A DNA stretch of 64,000 nucleotides from NCBI GenBank assembly GCA_016791475.1, contig JAEUWI010000037.1, positions 1 through 64,000 of the forward strand, given 5' to 3'. Shown here piece by piece: positions 12,832 through 59,387 of the stretch. A model generated the notes under the pieces. The model was given only the letters and a program-made list of their open reading frames with translations. It was not told the origin of the DNA and searched no databases. How positions within the stretch are numbered: position 1 is the first letter of the stretch; each line of letters opens with the position of its first letter. The DNA is from Candidatus Hydrogenedentota bacterium. Its GTDB lineage: Bacteria; Hydrogenedentota; Hydrogenedentia; Hydrogenedentales; JAEUWI01. Both the position numbers and the translations under genes were made by a program.

Positions 12832-14263
12832 CGGCGAACTCTCCCTTGATGGCGGCCGCGAGCGCGGCCTCGTAAACTCTGCGTACGGGAATCTGGGCGG
12901 CGTTGGCGACGCTCAGGCAATCTTCGTATTCGGGCGCGGTGGTGAGGGCGCTCTCCCCGCGCGCGCCTATCTTAACACGTACGGGACCCCAGGGGGTGGA
13001 AACGGATTTCCACGCGCGGTTGAGGATGAAGCGCTGCTCGGTGCGGGTGCGCACGCCGAGGGTGGTGGAGTGGGCGAAGATCAGCTCGCAGAGGGCCTGG
13101 GCCCTGTCTTCCGCCGCCAGGACGGTGATCACGTGGGCCGGGCGACCTTTTTTGCCGATGACGGGCGTGAGGAAGGCATCGAGCGCGCCGCCGTCCATCA
13201 GCGCGGCCACGAGGGGCGCCAGGAGTTCGCCGGACATATCGTCGAGGTTCGCTTCGAGTATCTGGATGGTGTCGCGGCCCGAATCCGCGCCGCTTTCGCC
13301 AATGGTGATGCGGAGGACGTTGGCGCGGTCGGGCAGGTTCTTCGTGCCGCTGCCGTAGCCGATGGCCAGGGTGCGCATGAGGGGCGCGGGGCCGAATTCG
13401 GTGACGCGGTGGCGGATGATAGCCGCGCCGGTGGGGGTGACCAGTTCGCCGTCGACCGCGCCGCCGTAGGTGGGGATGCCCTGGAGCAGACGGGCCGTGG
13501 CGGGCGCGGGTACAGGCATGATGCCGTGGTCGCACTTGACGGTGCCGCTGCCCACGTGGAGGGGCGAGCAGGCGAAGCGCTCGATGCCCAGGAGGTGAAA
13601 GCCGATCTGGGAGGCGACGATATCGACGATGGAATCCACTGCGCCGACTTCGTGGAAGTGGACCTTGTCGATGGTGGTGCCGTGGACGGAGGCCTCCGCT
13701 TCGCCCAGGGCAAGGAAGGTGGCGTTGGCGGCGTCCTTCACGGCCTGGGGCAGGCTGCTGCCCGTGATGAGCTTCTCGATGTCGGCCAGATTGCGGTGGG
13801 GGTGGTGATGGTGACCGTGACCGTGATCATGGGTGTGCGAATGAGAATGGCTGTGGCCGTGATCATGAGAGTGGCCATGGTCATGACCATGACCATGGTC
13901 GTGATGATGATGGTGGTGATCGTGTCCATGCTCGTGGTCGTGATCGTGGTGATGATGGTGACCCGGCGTCAGTACGTGTTTGTGCTGGTGGGTCTGGACG
14001 GGCGTGAAGCGCGGGGTGGCGATATGATCATGATCGTGCGCGTGATGGTGGTGGTGATCCGGCGCCCCGTGATCGTGCACGCGGAACTGGGTGGCGTGGA
14101 CGCCGTTCTTGAGCACTTTCTCGGCGGAGACGGTGTAGCCTTCGACGCCCAGGGAGTGTAGGCCCTCTTTGATGGCGTCGAAATCAGCGCCCGCATCGAT
14201 GAGGGCGCCCACGGTCATGTCGCCGCTGATGCCGCTGAAGCAGTCGAAGTAACAGGTTTTCAT
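12824..14263 (-). CDS. larC: LarC, nickel insertion protein for the nickel-pincer cofactor
   Basis: LarC inserts nickel into the pyridinium bis-thiocarboxylate nucleotide to finish the nickel-pincer cofactor of lactate racemase and related enzymes. The ATG at 14263 gives the standard start [16 protein letters not shown]. Residues about 60-155 form a very long histidine-rich insert with more than 40 His in His/Asp/Gly runs, a likely Ni store. The C-terminal domain (ANLDDMSGELL, then DAFLTPVIGKKGRPA) is in the same frame. No frameshift is therefore needed, unlike in Lactobacillus plantarum, where LarC is made through a programmed frameshift. larB lies upstream on the same strand; larE and larA are not in the window. 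Confidence 0.95.
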   Translation of the reverse strand: MKTCYFDCFSGISGDMTVGALIDAGADFDAIKEGLHSLGVEGYTVSAEKVLKNGVHATQFRVHDHGAPDHHHHHAHDHDHIATPRFTPVQTHQHKHVLTPGHHHHHDHDHEHGHDHHHHHHDHGHGHDHGHSHDHGHSHSHSHTHDHGHGHHHHPHRNLADIEKLITGSSLPQAVKDAANATFLALGEAEASVHGTTIDKVHFHEVGAVDSIVDIVASQIGFHLLGIERFACSPLHVGSGTVKCDHGIMPVPAPATARLLQGIPTYGGAVDGELVTPTGAAIIRHRVTEFGPAPLMRTLAIGYGSGTKNLPDRANVLRITIGESGADSGRDTIQILEANLDDMSGELLAPLVAALMDGGALDAFLTPVIGKKGRPAHVITVLAAEDRAQALCELIFAHSTTLGVRTRTEQRFILNRAWKSVSTPWGPVRVKIGARGESALTTAPEYEDCLSVANAAQIPVRRVYEAALAAAIKGEFADV

Positions 14264-14443
14264 GGGGTGCATCCGGGAGGCTGGGCCTCGTGGTTTATTG
14301 GACTTTGGTTCCAACGTATTTGTAACGATTTAGCATTCTTTAGTACTCGGAATACGTCAAGTCATAGCACGGTGTGCGACATAAGCCCTTGCGGGAAATC
14401 ACCGGAAATGACTCGGCAATATCCACCCTATTTCGCGGGCCAG

Positions 14444-14591
14444 GGTGGGTTAGGCGTCCCGCCTGACCATCGCGCCTGGATCGCTATTGGGCCGTTTGCA
14501 TGATCGAGATACCACTCATATTTGTCATAGTTGTATTCAGTCGCTCTCGTTGAACCGCGTCGTATTGGTCAGGCGGGACGCCTAACCCACC
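14444..14591. repeat. 25-bp perfect inverted repeat (first copy; second at 14987-15134)
   Basis: GGTGGGTTAGGCGTCCCGCC (continuing TGACC, 14444-14468) is mirrored exactly at 14567-14591, with 98 bp between the arms. The same pair recurs at 14987-15011 and 15110-15134 in the duplicate. The arms and the AT-richer centre look like a small non-coding mobile element or structured RNA; no transposase is present. Confidence 0.85.
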
Positions 14592-14602
14592 TTGGCGCGC
14601 TT

Positions 14603-14806
14603 TCATATCTCCAATGTATATTGCGAATGCGGGATGCACATGGCTACAGAATTGCGTACCTTTCCGCGTGAGAGGTGGCGATAGTAGCGGGATTTTGTGG
14701 GGCGTGTATCTTTGATGACGTCGAAATCGGCGCCCGCATCGATGAGGGCACCCACGGTCATGTCGCCGCTGATGCCGCTGAAGCAGTCGAAGTAACAGGT
14801 TTTCAT
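14603..14806 (-). pseudogene. Truncated duplicate of the larC 5' end
   Basis: The second copy of the duplication reproduces the larC start codon and about 32 codons ([16 protein letters not shown] onward to DFDVIK). It then runs into unrelated sequence and stops after 67 codons. If translated it would yield a short LarC N-terminal peptide. It is best read as a duplication by-product. Confidence 0.8.
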
Positions 14807-15376
14807 GGGGTGCATCCGGGAGGCTGGGCCTCGTGGGTTATTGGACTTTGGTTCCAACGTATTTGTAACGATTTGGCGGTCTTTAGTACTCGGAATACGT
14901 CAAGTCACAACACGGTGTGCGACATAAGCCCTTGCGGGAAATCACCGGAAATGACTCGGCAATACCCACCCTATTTCGCGGGCCAGGGTGGGTTAGGCGT
15001 CCCGCCTGACCATCGCGCCTGGATCGCTATTGGGCCGTTTGTATGATCGAGATACCATTTATATTTGTCATAGTTGTATTCAGTCGCTCTCGTTGAACCG
15101 CGTCGTATTGGTCAGGCGGGACGCCTAACCCACCTTGGCGCGCGTTCATATCTCCAATGGATATTGCGAATGCGGGATACACATGGCTACAGAATTGCGT
15201 ACCTTCCCGCGTGAGAGGTGGCGATAGTAGCGGGATTTTGTGGCGCGTGTGTTTTTGATGGACCGATTCCTTATGGGCACTGTCCTCCCGCGGCAGATCT
15301 TCGACTCCCGATTGGCTGGGCGTCGCTGTTGCTATACCAGCGTCGTGGTCCAATCGGCCGCAGTCGCTATCGGAAT

Positions 15377-16138: not shown

Positions 16139-16223
16139 GGGGGAGATTCCGTGCCTGGGGTTTGGAAGGGCTTCAGTGTACAGGTTTGACCGGGGAAATG
16201 AAATGAGGTCCCGGTTGAAGGGA

Positions 16224-16355
16224 ATGGGTCTTATGGGTCTTATGGGTCTTATGGGTCTTATGGGTCTTATGGGTCGTATGGGTCGTATGGGTCGTATGGG
16301 TCGTATGGGCGGTGGCGAAGCGTTTTCATAAGACCCATACGACCCATAAGACCCA
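16224..16355. repeat. 9-bp repeat array (ATGGGTCKT) with inverted arm
   Basis: Five ATGGGTCTT units and four ATGGGTCGT units (16224-16304) are followed, after a 24-bp spacer, by three units on the opposite strand (AAGACCCAT, ACGACCCAT, AAGACCCAT; 16329-16355). A run of T then follows. The arms can pair into a long hairpin. The array lies between larB and the choice-of-anchor-X gene. Confidence 0.95.
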
Positions 16356-24799: not shown

Positions 24800-24901
24800 G
24801 TCTTATGGGAAAATGGGTCCGATGAGAAATGGATTCAAGCAATAGTGCTGGCCGACCCATACGACCCATACGACCCATAAGACCCATAAGACCCATAAGA
24901 T
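24800..24901. repeat. 9-bp repeat pair (ATGGGTC units, inverted)
   Basis: A degenerate left arm (GGGTCTTATGGGAAAATGGG, about 24800-24822) faces a cleaner right arm of five to six units on the opposite strand (CGACCCAT, ACGACCCAT, ACGACCCAT, AAGACCCAT and so on, 24857-24900). It lies between ispE and the zinc-ribbon gene. Confidence 0.85.
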
Positions 24902-24948
24902 CCCCGCAATGGCTTCGGCCAGCGGTGACCAATCAGGATGACACAAGA

Positions 24949-50848: not shown

Positions 50849-51107
50849 TGCGATATTCTCCTTAACTGGCCGCTAACGCGGCGCTGCTATGCTGAGGTAT
50901 GCGCCAAATGCCCCGAGCCCGGGGCGGGGTATGGCGTCAGCCGGCGGCCCGACGAGGCCAGCGGACGGTCTTCCATGATACCGAATAAACCGCATGCGCA
51001 CAAATTTACGGAATTAATCGAGAAGGGGGAACGGGCCTGTAATGACCGCGTGGGTATCGGCCACAGAAATTCTATACAATAGCCAATCATCCAACCGGGA
51101 GCCTCCC

Positions 51108-51791
51108 ATGACGCAGAAGCAGCCAGCCGTCGTTCTCTTGAGCGGCGGCGTCGATTCAACGGTATTGCTCCACTATGTGGTGCGGCGTCTGGACCGCCCG
51201 AATGTTCACGCGCTGAGTTTCAACTACGGCCAGCGGCACAGCCGTGAACTGGTCTGCGCGTCGGCCCAGGCCCGCCTGGTCTCGGCGGAGTACCGCATCA
51301 TCGACCTTTCTTTCATGGGCGCGCTGATTCAAGAGGGTTCCGCGTTGATTGAGGGCGGCGCACCGGTGCCGGATCTGGATTCGCTGACCGTGGAGGAACT
51401 GCAGCAGCCCCCGACCTACGTGCCCAACCGGAACATGATGCTGCTGTCCATGGCGGCGGCCTATGCCGAGGCCCACGGAATTGCGGATGTTTACTATGGC
51501 GCCCAGGCCCAGGACGAGTATGGCTACTGGGATTGCACCCGGGATTTCCTGAAACGTATGAACGAGGTGCTGGGCCTGAACCGCAAGCGGCCGGTGACGA
51601 TACATGCCCCCTTCGTGGTGAAGTCCAAGGCGGAAACCGTGGGGTTGGGTCTGGAACTCCGGGTGGACTTCACCCAGACCTGGAGCTGCTATCGCGGCGG
51701 TGAAAGCGCCTGCGGCACCTGCCCCACCTGCGTGGAGCGGCTGAACGCCTTCAAGGCGAATGGGATTGCGGACCCCGTTTCGTATTTGTGA
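51108..51791 (+). CDS. queC: 7-cyano-7-deazaguanine (preQ0) synthase
   Basis: QueC converts 7-carboxy-7-deazaguanine to preQ0 with ATP and ammonia. The 227-residue protein has the PP-loop SGGVDST (residues 12-18), LSFNYGQRH, PNRNMMLLS, and a C-terminal four-cysteine zinc site (CYRGGESACGTCPTC). The ATG at 51108 follows GGGAG. It is on the plus strand, separated from the other que genes by repeat arrays and a sensor kinase, but clearly belongs to the same pathway as the genes at 55272-57209. Confidence 0.97.
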   Translation: MTQKQPAVVLLSGGVDSTVLLHYVVRRLDRPNVHALSFNYGQRHSRELVCASAQARLVSAEYRIIDLSFMGALIQEGSALIEGGAPVPDLDSLTVEELQQPPTYVPNRNMMLLSMAAAYAEAHGIADVYYGAQAQDEYGYWDCTRDFLKRMNEVLGLNRKRPVTIHAPFVVKSKAETVGLGLELRVDFTQTWSCYRGGESACGTCPTCVERLNAFKANGIADPVSYL

Positions 51792-51829
51792 TCGGGGGCC
51801 GTGAACGCCCGCTCGGGGGGGAAAGGGAC

Positions 51830-51931
51830 GTATGGGTCTTATGGGTCTTATGGGTCGTATGGGTCTTATGGGTCGTATGGGTCGTATGGGTCGTATGGGT
51901 CGTATGGGTCGTATTCGTATGGGTCGTATGG
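51830..51931. repeat. 9-bp repeat array (ATGGGTCKT), single orientation
   Basis: About eleven ATGGGTCTT/ATGGGTCGT units in one orientation, with one interrupted unit (GTATTCGTATGGG) near the end. No inverted arm is seen here. It follows queC and runs almost directly into the 7-bp array at 51953. Confidence 0.95.
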
Positions 51932-51952: not shown

Positions 51953-52070
51953 CACTGTCCACTGTCCACTGTCCACTGTCAATTGTCAATTGTCAATTGT
52001 CCACTGTCCACTGTCCACTGTCAACTGTCAACTGTCCACTGTCCACTGTCAACTGTCAACTGTCAACTGA
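51953..52070. repeat. 7-bp tandem repeat array (CACTGTC/CAACTGT/CAATTGT)
   Basis: About 17 units of 7 bp: blocks of CCACTGT, CAATTGT and CAACTGT alternate. This is the same family as positions 1-77. The array overlaps the 3' end of the sensor-kinase gene, whose last codons (Ser-Val-Asp-Ser) and TGA stop are repeat sequence. Confidence 0.95.
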
Positions 52071-55271: not shown

Positions 55272-55724
55272 TCAGGTCATGGGCCCCATGCTCGCGCGGT
55301 CATACGACGCCGTCACCGTGCTGGAGAGGCCGCCGCGGGGGTTGCACGTGATGGTGATGGTCATGGAGCGGGGCGCGCAGGCCTTCACGAGATCTTCGAG
55401 CATGCGGTTGACCAGGTGCTCGTACCAGATGCCCACATCGCGATACGAAAGGAGATAGTATTTAAGGGAGCGCAATTCCAGGCAATGCTCGCCGGGCACA
55501 TAGCGGATGTTGACCACGGCGAAGTCGGGCAGACCGGAAAACGGGCATACCGAGGTGAACTCGTCGGTTTCCGTCTCGATACACATGGCCTGGCCGTGGG
55601 GTTTGTCCGCGTACTCGTAGGGGAAACATTCGAGCAGGTGATCTTCGATGGCCTCCTGTCCTTTGAAGGGCAGGGACTTGTCGAGCGCCTTGAATTGATC
55701 TTTGGCGGGCGTGGGGTTTTCCAT
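55272..55724 (-). CDS. queF: NADPH-dependent preQ0 reductase
   Basis: QueF reduces the nitrile of preQ0 to the aminomethyl group of preQ1, the last free-base step before tRNA insertion. The 150-residue protein is of the short, single-domain type. Catalytic Cys60 and Asp67 are in TSVCPFSGLPDFA, followed by the family segment CLELRSLKYYLLSYRD. AAGGAA precedes the ATG at 55724. It is the third gene of the queE-queD-queF cluster. Confidence 0.95.
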   Translation of the reverse strand: MENPTPAKDQFKALDKSLPFKGQEAIEDHLLECFPYEYADKPHGQAMCIETETDEFTSVCPFSGLPDFAVVNIRYVPGEHCLELRSLKYYLLSYRDVGIWYEHLVNRMLEDLVKACAPRSMTITITCNPRGGLSSTVTASYDRASMGPMT

Positions 55725-55800: not shown

Positions 55801-56502
55801 TCAGCCGCCGTAGTAAATACACCGCGCGGTATAGGTTTCCTGCACCACCACCACGGTCGGTTCTTCACCCGCCGCGACCAGACGATCCCAGACCCACTTG
55901 CAGATGCGCTCGCAGGTGGCCCATTCCAGGCCGGGCACTTCGTTAAGGTAGGTGTGATCCAGCTCGTCGTAGATCGCGCGGAGGTGCGGCTCCAGTGCGT
56001 CGAGATTTTTTGTTCCCACTTCGAAGCGATAGCTGTGGCCGTGGATGCAATTGCACGGGTGGGTCGAGGGCAACTGGGGCAGGGACTGGGCCGCTTCGAA
56101 GCTGAAGATGACCCGTTCCGGCAGATTTTCAAAGGGGATGGCGGGCAGCCGGCGCGGCACGAAGTCCAGGTCGCCGTCGATGGAAACGCGCACCCCGTCA
56201 TACCAGGCCGGTTTGGGCGACAGGTGGGCGTCGATCCAGCGCTCCAGCGCGGGGACGGTCGTGTCGTTCTCCAGGCCGGGGATATCATTCAGACAGGCAT
56301 GATCGAGCTGATCGTAGAGGGGACGGAAGAGGCGTTTGAGGGCCGAATAGTCCACGATCCAGCCAATTTCCGGGTCGAGTCCGCCTTTGGCCAGGATCTC
56401 CACTTTGTAGCTGTGGCCGTGGAGGCGCTGCTGTTTCTCGTTGCCCTTCGGGTTGCGGTGGGCCGCTTCCACATAGGCGATTTTCGTTAAATGGGCTTCC
56501 AA
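55801..56502 (-). CDS. queD: Double-domain QueD (6-carboxytetrahydropterin synthase) with split active-site residues
   Basis: QueD makes 6-carboxytetrahydropterin from dihydroneopterin triphosphate. This 233-residue protein contains two QueD domains, where the normal enzyme has one of ~120 residues. Domain 1 (about 8-110) keeps the zinc histidines (His15, His28, His30) and Asp67-His68. It has Gln24 where the catalytic Cys is expected (KQQRLHGHS versus KCGRLHGHS in E. coli), and it lacks the C-terminal Glu motif. Domain 2 (about 132-233) keeps Cys150, HGH, Asp182-His183 and the pterin-binding Glu222 (VVQETYTARCIY). Its first zinc ligand is Gln139 (FEAAQ instead of FEAAH). The two halves appear complementary. 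TTG start with AAGGAAG upstream. Confidence 0.92.
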   Translation of the reverse strand: MEAHLTKIAYVEAAHRNPKGNEKQQRLHGHSYKVEILAKGGLDPEIGWIVDYSALKRLFRPLYDQLDHACLNDIPGLENDTTVPALERWIDAHLSPKPAWYDGVRVSIDGDLDFVPRRLPAIPFENLPERVIFSFEAAQSLPQLPSTHPCNCIHGHSYRFEVGTKNLDALEPHLRAIYDELDHTYLNEVPGLEWATCERICKWVWDRLVAAGEEPTVVVVQETYTARCIYYGG

Positions 56503-56525: not shown

Positions 56526-57209
56526 TTAGACGCCGCGTTCGTTCGGCGGCCAGATGAATTTGTGCATCTGCAATTGAAAGCGGACCGCGTTCAGCCCGTC
56601 TTCGAGCATCCAGGTGACGATGTCTTTCGGATCAACCTCTCCGAACACGGGGGAAAAGAGCACCGCCCTGCAGCATTGGGTGAGATTATAACGCCGGACG
56701 GTGTCCCGGCTCCATTCGTAATCCCGCCGGCTGGCGATGACGAACTTGACCTCGTCGCGATCCGCCCTCAAATGGGGGATGTTGGTCCAGTCGTTGAAAC
56801 GTTCCATGCCGCTGTCGGGACATTTCAGATCCATGATGCGTACCACGGGGTCGGGCAGGGTGTTGATGGGCAGGGAGCCGCTCGTCTCGATCAGCACCGT
56901 GCAGCCCGCCTCCAGCAGCAACTCCGCCAGGGGCACACATTCCTTCTGGGCCAGCGGCTCGCCGCCGGTCAGCTCCACCAGGGGCACGCCGAAGGCCAGC
57001 GTAGCACGGAGGATTTCCTCCAGGGTCTGCTTCTCGCCGCCGTGGAAGCTGTAGGTGGTGTCGCACCAGCGACAGCGCAGGTTGCAGCGGGCCAGGCGGA
57101 TGAATACGCACGGCAGCCCCGCCCAGGTGCTTTCGCCCTGGACGCTGCAGTAGATCTCGATCATCCGCAGCGTCTGGGTAAGTCGCGGGTCGGTGGTGGG
57201 TAGGGGCAT
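56526..57209 (-). CDS. queE: 7-carboxy-7-deazaguanine synthase
   Basis: QueE is a radical-SAM enzyme that contracts 6-carboxytetrahydropterin to 7-carboxy-7-deazaguanine. The 227-residue product starts at the ATG at 57209, and a longer frame upstream would run through repeat DNA. The cluster motif is RCNLRCRWCDT, a CX3CX2C with Cys42, Cys46 and Cys49, and the SAM motif VELTGGEPLAQKE follows. YCSVQGESTWAGLP is typical of the family. It is the first gene of the minus-strand que cluster: queD starts 23 bp after its stop. A TATAAT box lies 46 bases before the ATG. Confidence 0.95.
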   Translation of the reverse strand: MPLPTTDPRLTQTLRMIEIYCSVQGESTWAGLPCVFIRLARCNLRCRWCDTTYSFHGGEKQTLEEILRATLAFGVPLVELTGGEPLAQKECVPLAELLLEAGCTVLIETSGSLPINTLPDPVVRIMDLKCPDSGMERFNDWTNIPHLRADRDEVKFVIASRRDYEWSRDTVRRYNLTQCCRAVLFSPVFGEVDPKDIVTWMLEDGLNAVRFQLQMHKFIWPPNERGV

Positions 57210-57254
57210 GGGGGAGGATTCCGGTTCAGGGCCTGGGTTGCGGGGTCGGGGGGT

Positions 57255-57260
57255 ATTATA
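57255..57260 (-). promoter_or_regulatory. Promoter (-10) of queE-queD-queF cluster
   Basis: A perfect TATAAT on the minus strand; CAGACT 16 bp upstream (57277-57282) is a partial -35. The transcript would begin close to 57248. Confidence 0.5.
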
Positions 57261-57305
57261 CGCGAAGTTAACCTGGAGTCTGGAGTCTGGAGGGGTCGGG
57301 AAGAA

Positions 57306-57408
57306 ATGGGCCTTATGGGTCGTATGGGTCTTATGGGTTCGTATGGTGGTGGTTAGTGGCTGGTCGATCATAGCGACCCATAAGACTCATACGACCCATA
57401 AGGCCCAT
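57306..57408. repeat. 9-bp repeat inverted pair with matched unit variants
   Basis: Left arm 57306-57340 (ATGGGCCTT, ATGGGTCGT, ATGGGTCTT, ATGGG...) and right arm 57374-57408 are reverse complements over about 33 bases with one mismatch. The unusual outer unit ATGGGCCTT has its exact partner AAGGCCCAT at the far end. The spacer is 33 bp. It sits between the divergent queE and DUF4129 genes. Confidence 0.95.
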
Positions 57409-57488: not shown

Positions 57489-59387
57489 ATGGACAAGCGC
57501 GGCGATCACATCCCCCTGGACCTCCACTCCCTCCGCCGGGAGTTTGCCGCGCCGCCGGCCCTGCCCGAGGGTGCGCCACGCCCTGAAGTTGAAGAGGAGC
57601 GCAGCCTGGCGGATCGGGCGGTGGATCTTCTTATCCCGCTCATGATTTTCTGCATGATGCTTGCCGTCGCCTGGTTTCTTCTCGATATCCGCTTCATCTA
57701 CACCGAGCGGCTCGATATCAATATGCGGGCCTTCGCCTTTTTCTTTGTGATGGGCATTGTGGCCCTCAATCGGCTGCGGGCGGATCGGGAGGCGACGGAT
57801 TCCGGGGTTTACCTCGTGGGTATGATTTTCGCCGTGGGCATGTTCACCGTGGTGACTCAGCTCCGGGGCGGCGGACTGGCCGGGGGCGTGATGACCAGCA
57901 TGCTGCCCTCGCTCTGCTTCAACATCAGTGTCGTGGCCATCCTCTGGAAAGTGACCGACCGGCTCACGCGGGATTGCTGTGTGGATGCCAGCGCGCGCTA
58001 TGGCGAGGTGGGTATCCTGCGGGGCGGCTGGCTGCGCAAGGCCCCGCCCGCCGAGGTCTCTGCCGAGCCGGAGATCGGCAAGGGACGTCTCCCGCGCAAG
58101 CACCCCGCCAATTCACTCTTCTATCTGGCCATTCCCATCATGATCCTCCTCGCCATCGGCCAGCGTCTTCTGCCCCAGGGCGGCTCCCTCATGGAATCGG
58201 CGGGGAGCGTCTACGTGGGCGTTTACACGGTTGCCATGTTGCTCTTGCTCATGCTGTCGAGTTACCGGGGCCTTCGCGTCTATTGCCAGCGCCGGGCCAT
58301 CACCTTTCCCACGAGTATCGCGGCCTTCTGGCTTGGTCTGGGCAGCCTGATGGTGGGGCTGGTGCTTATCCTGGGGCTCTGGGGGCCTGTGCCGGCGAAG
58401 CCGGAGGCCTGGCATGGGGCGGCGCGTCAGGTGGACGAATCGGGGCGAACAATCTCGACGAAGTACGACTACCACGAGTATCAGCGGTGGAGCGAAGCGA
58501 GTACCGAGCACGGTCAGCAGGGCGAACTGGGCCCCGAAGGTCGGGAAGGTCAGTCGAGTGAGATCCGCCAGCCGGGACAACAAGGACAACAAGGACAACA
58601 GGGCCAACAAGGACAACAGGGACAACAGGGACAACAGGGACAACAGGGACAACAGGGACAACAGGGACAACAAGGACAACAAGGACAACAAGGACAACAA
58701 GGACAACAAGGACAACAGGAAAATCCCCGATCCGGTGCCGAGGATCCGCAGCAATCGCAGTCCGTAGAGAAAAGCCCGGAACAGTCCACCGGACAGGAAT
58801 CTTCCGGGTCAAGCGGCACACCGCCCGCAACCCAAATTCCCATGAACGAACTGATGGACGCGGCGCCCGCGCTGAAGTGGCTGGCCTACGGCGCCCTGGC
58901 GCTGATGGGGCTGTTCTTCCTTTACGTCCTGGTTCAGGCGGCAGCCCACTACTTCGGACGGGCGGCGGGCCAGCGGGCCGGATTCTTCGACCGGCTTGCG
59001 CGCTTCTTCCGCAGGCTGACCTACGTGCCAAGGCGCAAGCCGCGGCGGCCGCGGGTCAAGGTGGACCGCGATATTGCCACGTGTACGCGCTATCAGAATC
59101 CGCTTCGCGGACAGGGGTCGCTGCTCGAAAAGATCCAGTACAGCTACGATGCCCTCTGCGCGCTGGCCTACGATTTGGGCGTGCCGCGAGAAGAAGGCGA
59201 GACGCCCTTCGAGTACCTGGCGCGCCTGCCCGAGCCGATCGCGGAGATCGGCCCGGAGGCCGATACGCTGACCCATCTCTATGTGGCGGGCAGCTATTCC
59301 ACCCTACAGATTCCGGAAGAGGCCGCGTCGGAGCTGGGCAAGTTCTGGAAAGGATTCGAACGGCTGCGGGGCCGGGTGCTTCGATAG
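57489..59387 (+). CDS. DUF4129-containing membrane protein with (Gly-Gln-Gln)16 repeat
   Basis: The 632-residue product has about five membrane helices in residues 45-310 (LLIPLMIFCMMLAVAWFLL first) and a polar loop starting near 325. That loop includes sixteen Gly-Gln-Gln repeats (about 363-410) and a Ser/Gln/Glu-rich stretch. A further helix (WLAYGALALMGLFFLYVLV, about 457-480) follows, then a soluble C-terminal DUF4129 domain (about 535-625: YSYDALCALAYDLGVPRE, TPFEYLARLP). The layout is that of the C-terminal half of transglutaminase-like membrane proteins (TgpA-type), but the transglutaminase domain is missing; the repeat occupies its place. Function unknown. Confidence 0.75.
   Translation: MDKRGDHIPLDLHSLRREFAAPPALPEGAPRPEVEEERSLADRAVDLLIPLMIFCMMLAVAWFLLDIRFIYTERLDINMRAFAFFFVMGIVALNRLRADREATDSGVYLVGMIFAVGMFTVVTQLRGGGLAGGVMTSMLPSLCFNISVVAILWKVTDRLTRDCCVDASARYGEVGILRGGWLRKAPPAEVSAEPEIGKGRLPRKHPANSLFYLAIPIMILLAIGQRLLPQGGSLMESAGSVYVGVYTVAMLLLLMLSSYRGLRVYCQRRAITFPTSIAAFWLGLGSLMVGLVLILGLWGPVPAKPEAWHGAARQVDESGRTISTKYDYHEYQRWSEASTEHGQQGELGPEGREGQSSEIRQPGQQGQQGQQGQQGQQGQQGQQGQQGQQGQQGQQGQQGQQGQQGQQGQQENPRSGAEDPQQSQSVEKSPEQSTGQESSGSSGTPPATQIPMNELMDAAPALKWLAYGALALMGLFFLYVLVQAAAHYFGRAAGQRAGFFDRLARFFRRLTYVPRRKPRRPRVKVDRDIATCTRYQNPLRGQGSLLEKIQYSYDALCALAYDLGVPREEGETPFEYLARLPEPIAEIGPEADTLTHLYVAGSYSTLQIPEEAASELGKFWKGFERLRGRVLR
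58575..58718 (+). repeat. Coding 9-bp repeat, 16 copies (GGACAACAR)
   Basis: Exactly 144 bp made of 16 units of 9 bp, each encoding Gly-Gln-Gln, with only CAA/CAG third-base alternation and one GGC unit. Low synonymous variety points to recent expansion by slippage. It is in frame within the DUF4129 protein. Confidence 0.97.

Follow-up and report, generated by a model that had tools for sequence, protein, structure and literature searches.

The window, by which we mean the whole 64,000-nucleotide stretch analyzed here, encodes a 233-residue protein that raises the question of how a QueD enzyme could work when its key residues are distributed over two domains of one chain. The sequence-only reading had proposed two fused QueD domains with complementary active-site losses. 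We asked whether the fusion is genuine, which pathway it serves, and which residues of the two domains belong to the same active site.

Two QueD domains are fused in a single reading frame

The frame begins with TTG (Table 1), is preceded by a Shine-Dalgarno-like AAGGAAG motif just 5′ of this codon, and starts 23 bases after queE; queF then follows. Pfam profile PF01242 matches two stretches of the protein (E 2.6e-38), and the NCBIfam QueD equivalog TIGR03367 scores it at 121.8 bits vs. a cut-off of 89.25. The presence of two QueD domains in one chain, as first read, was thus borne out. With the subfamily profile TIGR00039 the protein scores below the cut-off. The secondary structure of the AlphaFold model (mean pLDDT 96.4, pTM 0.90) comprises two tandem T-fold domains, and Foldseek matched the model to 4NTK, 3QN0 and 2OBA with 44–47% identity over one domain. 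Domain 2 is shorter by ∼11 residues, corresponding to a GWxxD loop that is present in domain 1 and in single-domain QueDs.

The fused gene is the sole PF01242 gene of the source genome (7.7 Mb, 96% complete). Of 68 Hydrogenedentota genomes, 60 contain PF01242, and in almost all of these a single open frame gives two matches. Where an inspected genome lacked a clean two-domain frame, the frame was short or broken, in several cases at the end of a contig. The nearest named contigs, both from Candidatus Hydrogenedentota (JAUIMA010000075 and JAJRPE010000131), were deposited separately and carry the full-length fusion; the single contig scan behind this found these two near relatives only. Dozens of independent genomes and these two contigs show the identical single-frame fusion, which rules out an assembly error joining two genes and leaves a negligible chance to any assembly or annotation artefact. 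Since most Hydrogenedentota genomes carry the fusion, it is an old, standing trait of the phylum. The earlier proposal of a duplication and fusion of QueD is likewise supported.

Beyond the Hydrogenedentota, sampling of the distribution was limited to plasmid, phage and viral collections. The plasmid protein search with P0001 splits single-domain QueDs into two pieces, so only single-piece matches were counted as fusions. Viral contig L124, a candidate two-domain QueD, is in fact single-domain, its long alignment being spurious. ToyB/TubA of the deazapurine antibiotics were also considered as possible fusions and set aside, since TubA has 125 residues and hence is single-domain.

Judged by its sequence, the 233-residue protein is a QueD by descent and motif, and bimodular by architecture. 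We propose the name bimodular QueD; a literature search, itself far from complete, found no paper using this or a similar name.

Table 1. Coordinates of the fused QueD gene, its key residues and the neighboring queuosine genes in the window.
Feature	Coordinates	Strand	Basis or conservation
Fused two-domain QueD (bimodular QueD), 233 aa	55801..56502	-	TTG start; PF01242, TIGR03367, AlphaFold model
Domain 1, residues 1–116, T-fold without Cys and catalytic Glu	56155..56502	-	Boundary from alignment and model
Domain 2, residues 129–233, metal/Cys/Glu domain	55804..56118	-	Alignment
Asp67-His68 of domain 1, predicted to complete the domain 2 active site	56299..56304	-	His68 56/56, Asp67 55/56
Gln139, first zinc-His position of domain 2	56086..56088	-	Gln 38/52 and His 14/52 Hydrogenedentota; His 4/4 Actinomycetota
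Cys150, predicted catalytic cysteine	56053..56055	-	51/52 Hydrogenedentota and 4/4 Actinomycetota
His154-Gly-His156, second and third metal histidines	56035..56043	-	56/56
Glu198, Thr-x-Glu motif	55909..55911	-	56/56
Glu222, (K/Q)ET motif	55837..55839	-	56/56
queE, directly upstream of fused QueD	56526..57371	-	TIGR04349 QueE best NCBIfam match, 4e-75, 252 bits, below curated cut-off 300
queF, unimodular type, directly downstream of fused QueD	55272..55724	-	TIGR03139 QueF-II, 122 bits, cut-off 86.9
queC	51042..51791	+	TIGR00364, 193 bits, cut-off 150

The fused QueD most likely serves queuosine synthesis

The genes around the fusion belong to preQ0 synthesis (Table 1). QueE profiles match the upstream gene strongly, all below their cut-offs, and the true starts of queE and queC probably lie inside the listed frames, that of queC ∼22 codons in. 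FolE and TGT are encoded elsewhere in the source genome. The gene order queE-queDD-queF (queDD denoting the fused gene) recurs in relatives, and in roughly 37 genomes QueF and the fused QueD share a contig at a distance of ≤ ∼1 kb. Three high-quality relatives (G024, G036 and G044) have neither QueD nor QueF at the cut-off and have kept QueC.

As the only PTPS-family protein of its genome, linked to preQ0 genes, the fused QueD is most likely the 6-carboxy-5,6,7,8-tetrahydropterin (CPH4) synthase of the queuosine pathway. The sole PTPS gene, the operon with queE and queF and the presence of FolE, QueC and TGT agree with the service in preQ0 synthesis suggested at first. The protein might instead have left CPH4 synthesis for other pterin chemistry or a regulatory role, as the Gln at a zinc-ligand position, the altered domain ends and the low TIGR00039 score could be taken to indicate. 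We consider this quite unlikely, because the protein is the only one of its kind beside a full preQ0 gene set, its Cys, His and Glu residues are invariant, and it passes the QueD equivalog.

The two domains retain different subsets of the QueD residues

The residues named in the sequence-only reading were confirmed by aligning the protein with QueD of E. coli and Pseudomonas and with relatives. Domain 1 has His15, His28 and His30, Gln24 at the Cys position and Asp67-His68, and lacks the Glu. In domain 2, Gln139 occupies the first zinc-His position, and Cys150, His154 and His156, Asp182-His183 and Glu222 are present. The glutamate of the Thr-x-Glu motif (Glu198) occurs in domain 2 only, with Pro at the equivalent position of domain 1; Glu198 is presumably the pterin-anchoring glutamate, by analogy with PTPS. 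The CxxxHGH motif, as defined for QueD (PMC5041015), is present in domain 2 only, as Cys150-Asn-Cys-Ile-His154-Gly-His156. The Asp-His and Glu catalytic residues expected of a QueD are all found (Asp67-His68, Asp182-His183, Glu222), whereas the three zinc histidines are incomplete in the Cys-bearing domain (Gln139) and complete only in the Cys-less domain 1. Close relatives have all three zinc histidines in domain 2, so that, by descent, the protein clearly belongs to QueD.

Conservation was scored in 46 full-length proteins first and then in 52 Hydrogenedentota and 4 Actinomycetota proteins (56 in all). We call set A the metal, Cys and Glu residues of domain 2 together with Asp-His of domain 1, and set B their counterparts. 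Set A is nearly invariant. Among Hydrogenedentota, Cys150 is kept in 51/52 (one Arg) and His154, His156, Glu198 and Glu222 in all 52, and in domain 1 His68 is kept in 52/52 and Asp67 in 51/52 (one Glu). Across the 56 proteins, Asp67 and Cys150 are each present in 55 and His68, His154, His156, Glu198 and Glu222 in 56. The protein with Arg at the Cys150 position (L013, G021:C343; HPRRNIHGH) has its other site residues intact, and may reflect a sequencing error or an inactive copy.

In set B, no domain 1 of the 56 has the Cys, and the equivalent of Glu222 is absent. The zinc His triad of domain 1 is intact in 36/52 Hydrogenedentota and incomplete in the other 16 (19/56 overall), and Asp-His of domain 2 is incomplete in 17/52 (20/56 overall). 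At the position equivalent to Glu198, domain 1 varies, with Glu in 14/52 Hydrogenedentota. Both the domain 1 triad and the domain 2 Asp-His are kept in 35 of the 56 proteins and both are lost in 18, with 3 mixed. On the tree this co-loss corresponds to three changes of each trait, two of them shared (three independent pairs, sign test not significant); with only two shared events it has small statistical weight, and the weight of the argument rests on the pattern of retention. Twenty-eight single-domain QueDs hold set A and set B residues together; they came from viral contigs picked by patterns that included the Cys and His motifs, so that only their Asp-His and Glu conservation is unbiased. 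The reciprocal conservation in the two domains supports the subfunctional loss after duplication that had been suggested.

Domain 1 probably lends its Asp-His pair to the domain 2 metal site

In rat PTPS the Cys lies on one subunit and Asp-His on the neighboring subunit, and in PTPS the glutamate of Thr-x-Glu anchors the pterin. PTPS active sites lie between adjacent monomers (PMC7546909), and the catalytic triad is intersubunit according to the title of Burgisser et al. (1995), as cited there. It had been assumed at the outset that each subunit is normally complete. This holds insofar as every PTPS subunit carries all the residues, but, going by PMC7546909 and the title it cites, each active site is built from several subunits. 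Because the triad spans subunits, the fused protein is best read as having one composite site with Asp-His from domain 1.

We therefore propose, with a probability of roughly 0.78, a bimodular QueD that makes CPH4 for queuosine at one working site (site A), which would join the metal, Cys and Glu of domain 2 to Asp-His of domain 1, the other site having decayed. Under this proposal, a single-domain QueD was duplicated and the copies fused; the fused pair would then have had two interface sites, site A and a site B formed by the domain 1 metal and the domain 2 Asp-His. Site A would have been retained as the working active site, and site B would have lost its Cys and Glu, and decayed entirely in some lineages.

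The sequence of the 233-residue protein itself permits another arrangement, since it retains Asp182-His183. Domain 2 alone could be the enzyme, with copies from different chains meeting and using their own Asp182-His183, and domain 1 serving as a scaffold; a domain 2 that holds Asp-His besides Cys and Glu is indeed found in this protein and in 35 relatives. The domain 2 pair has been lost, however, in 20/56 fusions, whereas His68 of domain 1 has never been lost and Asp67 has changed once (to Glu), which makes a domain-2-only enzyme unlikely.

The composite site A gains further support from a family of 15 proteins (f11), in which the domain 1 zinc histidines are gone or incomplete and the domain 2 Asp-His is lost. 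Invariant in 15/15 are Asp67, His68, Gln139, Cys150, His154, His156, Thr196, Glu198 and Glu222, so that Asp-His are the only catalytic residues remaining in domain 1. According to the AlphaFold model of one member (pLDDT 95.8, pTM 0.88), this domain 1 is still folded. An Asp-His pair so fully conserved in a domain that lacks its own metal site most plausibly works for the other domain, and its persistence after the loss of all other catalytic residues likewise speaks against domain 1 as a mere scaffold.

The same family bears on the pairing suggested in the sequence-only reading, in which zinc held by His15, His28 and His30 of domain 1 would serve Cys150 and Glu222 of domain 2. The triad is intact in the 233-residue protein and in 36/52 Hydrogenedentota, as that pairing would require. 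In all 15 f11 proteins, however, it is missing or incomplete, with Cys150, His154, His156, Glu222 and Asp67-His68 invariant; the triad is also lost in Streptomyces and Embleya fusions that keep Cys150, His154, His156, Glu198 and Glu222, and in 14 Hydrogenedentota the His triad next to the Cys of domain 2 is complete. The existence of f11 without those domain 1 histidines leaves the pairing unsupported, and we rate it as very unlikely. The idea of a site shared between the domains thus stood, with the difference that domain 1 appears to give Asp-His and not the metal.

These data suggest that (i) nature has run an experiment on a shared active site, in which fusion left one of two equivalent interface sites free to decay; (ii) the relatives preserve several stages of this decay; and (iii) the pattern of decay could assign residues to their sites without the need for mutagenesis.

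Actinomycetota carry similarly split fusions

Plasmid-borne two-domain fusions were found in Streptomyces, S. globisporus, Embleya and Amycolatopsis. Three Streptomyces/Embleya fusions are split, with Asp-His without the zinc triad in domain 1, and His-His-His, Cys and Glu without Asp-His in domain 2; in the Amycolatopsis fusion, only the Cys and Glu of domain 1 are lost. The actinomycete fusions adjoin queE, and some also folE or queC-like genes. The domain tree groups the actinobacterial domains with support of 83/72, which is not firm, and thus leans towards a separate origin of this fusion; an AU test did not reject a single origin of the Hydrogenedentota and actinobacterial fusions (p 0.31). 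Next to a Streptomyces fused QueD and after folE, an ORF (L064, 8077–8895) without an NCBIfam match resembles tRNA-guanine transglycosylase by eye.

Gln139 and two histidines probably bind the site A metal in the Gln139 clade

Gln139 is not unique to the 233-residue protein; it occurs in 38/52 Hydrogenedentota, with His in the other 14/52, and marks a large subclade. The Gln139 proteins formed one supported group (96/94) in a first tree, and in a second tree, from which the key columns were excluded, the trait requires two changes. In f11 there is no other metal site at the canonical positions, and Gln139, His154 and His156 are invariant; either the Gln is a metal ligand, or two histidines act with something else. 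In the Gln139 clade, which includes the 233-residue protein, Gln139, His154 and His156 probably serve as the ligands of the site A metal. Gln is known as a zinc ligand elsewhere, e.g., in phosphomannose isomerase; its being uncommon in this role is a point against the composite model. The His triad kept in site B of the 233-residue protein possibly binds a structural metal, or may simply reflect recency.

A more extended version, in which Gln-His-His is the catalytic metal centre of bimodular QueD, the split arose at least twice (in Hydrogenedentota and Actinomycetota) and the oligomer is not the canonical dimer of trimers, is tentative and, taken as a whole, somewhat doubtful. The Gln139 clade offers a test case for whether QueD chemistry needs three metal-bound histidines.

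Bimodular QueD resembles bimodular QueF in architecture

Single-domain QueD (PTPS-I; E. coli QueD 4NTK, 3QN0; Pseudomonas 2OBA) shares with the fused protein the T-fold, the CxxxHGH, Asp-His, Thr-x-Glu and ET motifs and the operon partners. It differs in having all the residues in the one domain of each chain, whereas in the fused protein the two domains divide them, with Gln in place of one zinc His. Animal 6-pyruvoyl tetrahydropterin synthase (PTPS-II) has a zinc site with a catalytic triad that is intersubunit, as the cited title states (Burgisser et al., 1995, in PMC7546909), but it is a homohexamer with CxxxxxHGH spacing and a different product.

In bimodular QueF of E. coli and V. cholerae, the motifs are distributed over two tandem T-folds, the active site is interdomain, and of the two domains only the C-terminal one retains the catalytic Cys (PMC5372742). 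This enzyme belongs to the same pathway, and conservation across the 56 proteins suggests that the catalytic residues of bimodular QueD are divided between two tandem T-folds in the same way, with the Cys in the C-terminal domain; the active site of the QueD would likewise lie at the interface of its domains. In contrast, QueF is a nitrile reductase, and the QueF encoded next to the fused QueD is of the unimodular type. After bimodular QueF, the fused QueD would represent a third step among the T-fold enzymes of one pathway at which fusion gave a single asymmetric site.

Uricase and GTP cyclohydrolase IB also have two T-folds per chain and gave weak fold matches (E 0.02–0.1), but they catalyze other reactions, and no significant sequence relation to the fused QueD was found. 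QueD2 of Acinetobacter baumannii (7V0F), a QueD paralogue of the PTPS fold, matches one domain only in sequence. For some bacteria, paralogues of this kind, named queD2, are predicted to be under Zur control (PMC9508795), and there they are a second queD copy; the source genome has one PF01242 gene.

Repeats elsewhere in the window

Arrays of a 9-bp repeat, ATGGGTC(G/T)T, lie at positions 16223–16310, 24849–24903, 51825–51931, 57306–57346 and 57370–57406 of the window and are apparently intergenic. A 27-mer of three such units has 572 copies in the genome vs. 0 for the reversed control; the repeat is a dispersed minisatellite. Tandem arrays of 7 bp (CACTGTC or CAACTGT type) occupy positions 1–89, at the edge of the window, and 51953–52069, beside queC. 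A GQQ tandem repeat (9 bp, ∼16 copies; 58575–58717) is found inside ORF 57489–59387, a putative membrane protein. Two 300-nt direct repeats, 97% identical and 543 bases apart, are located at 14166–15008.
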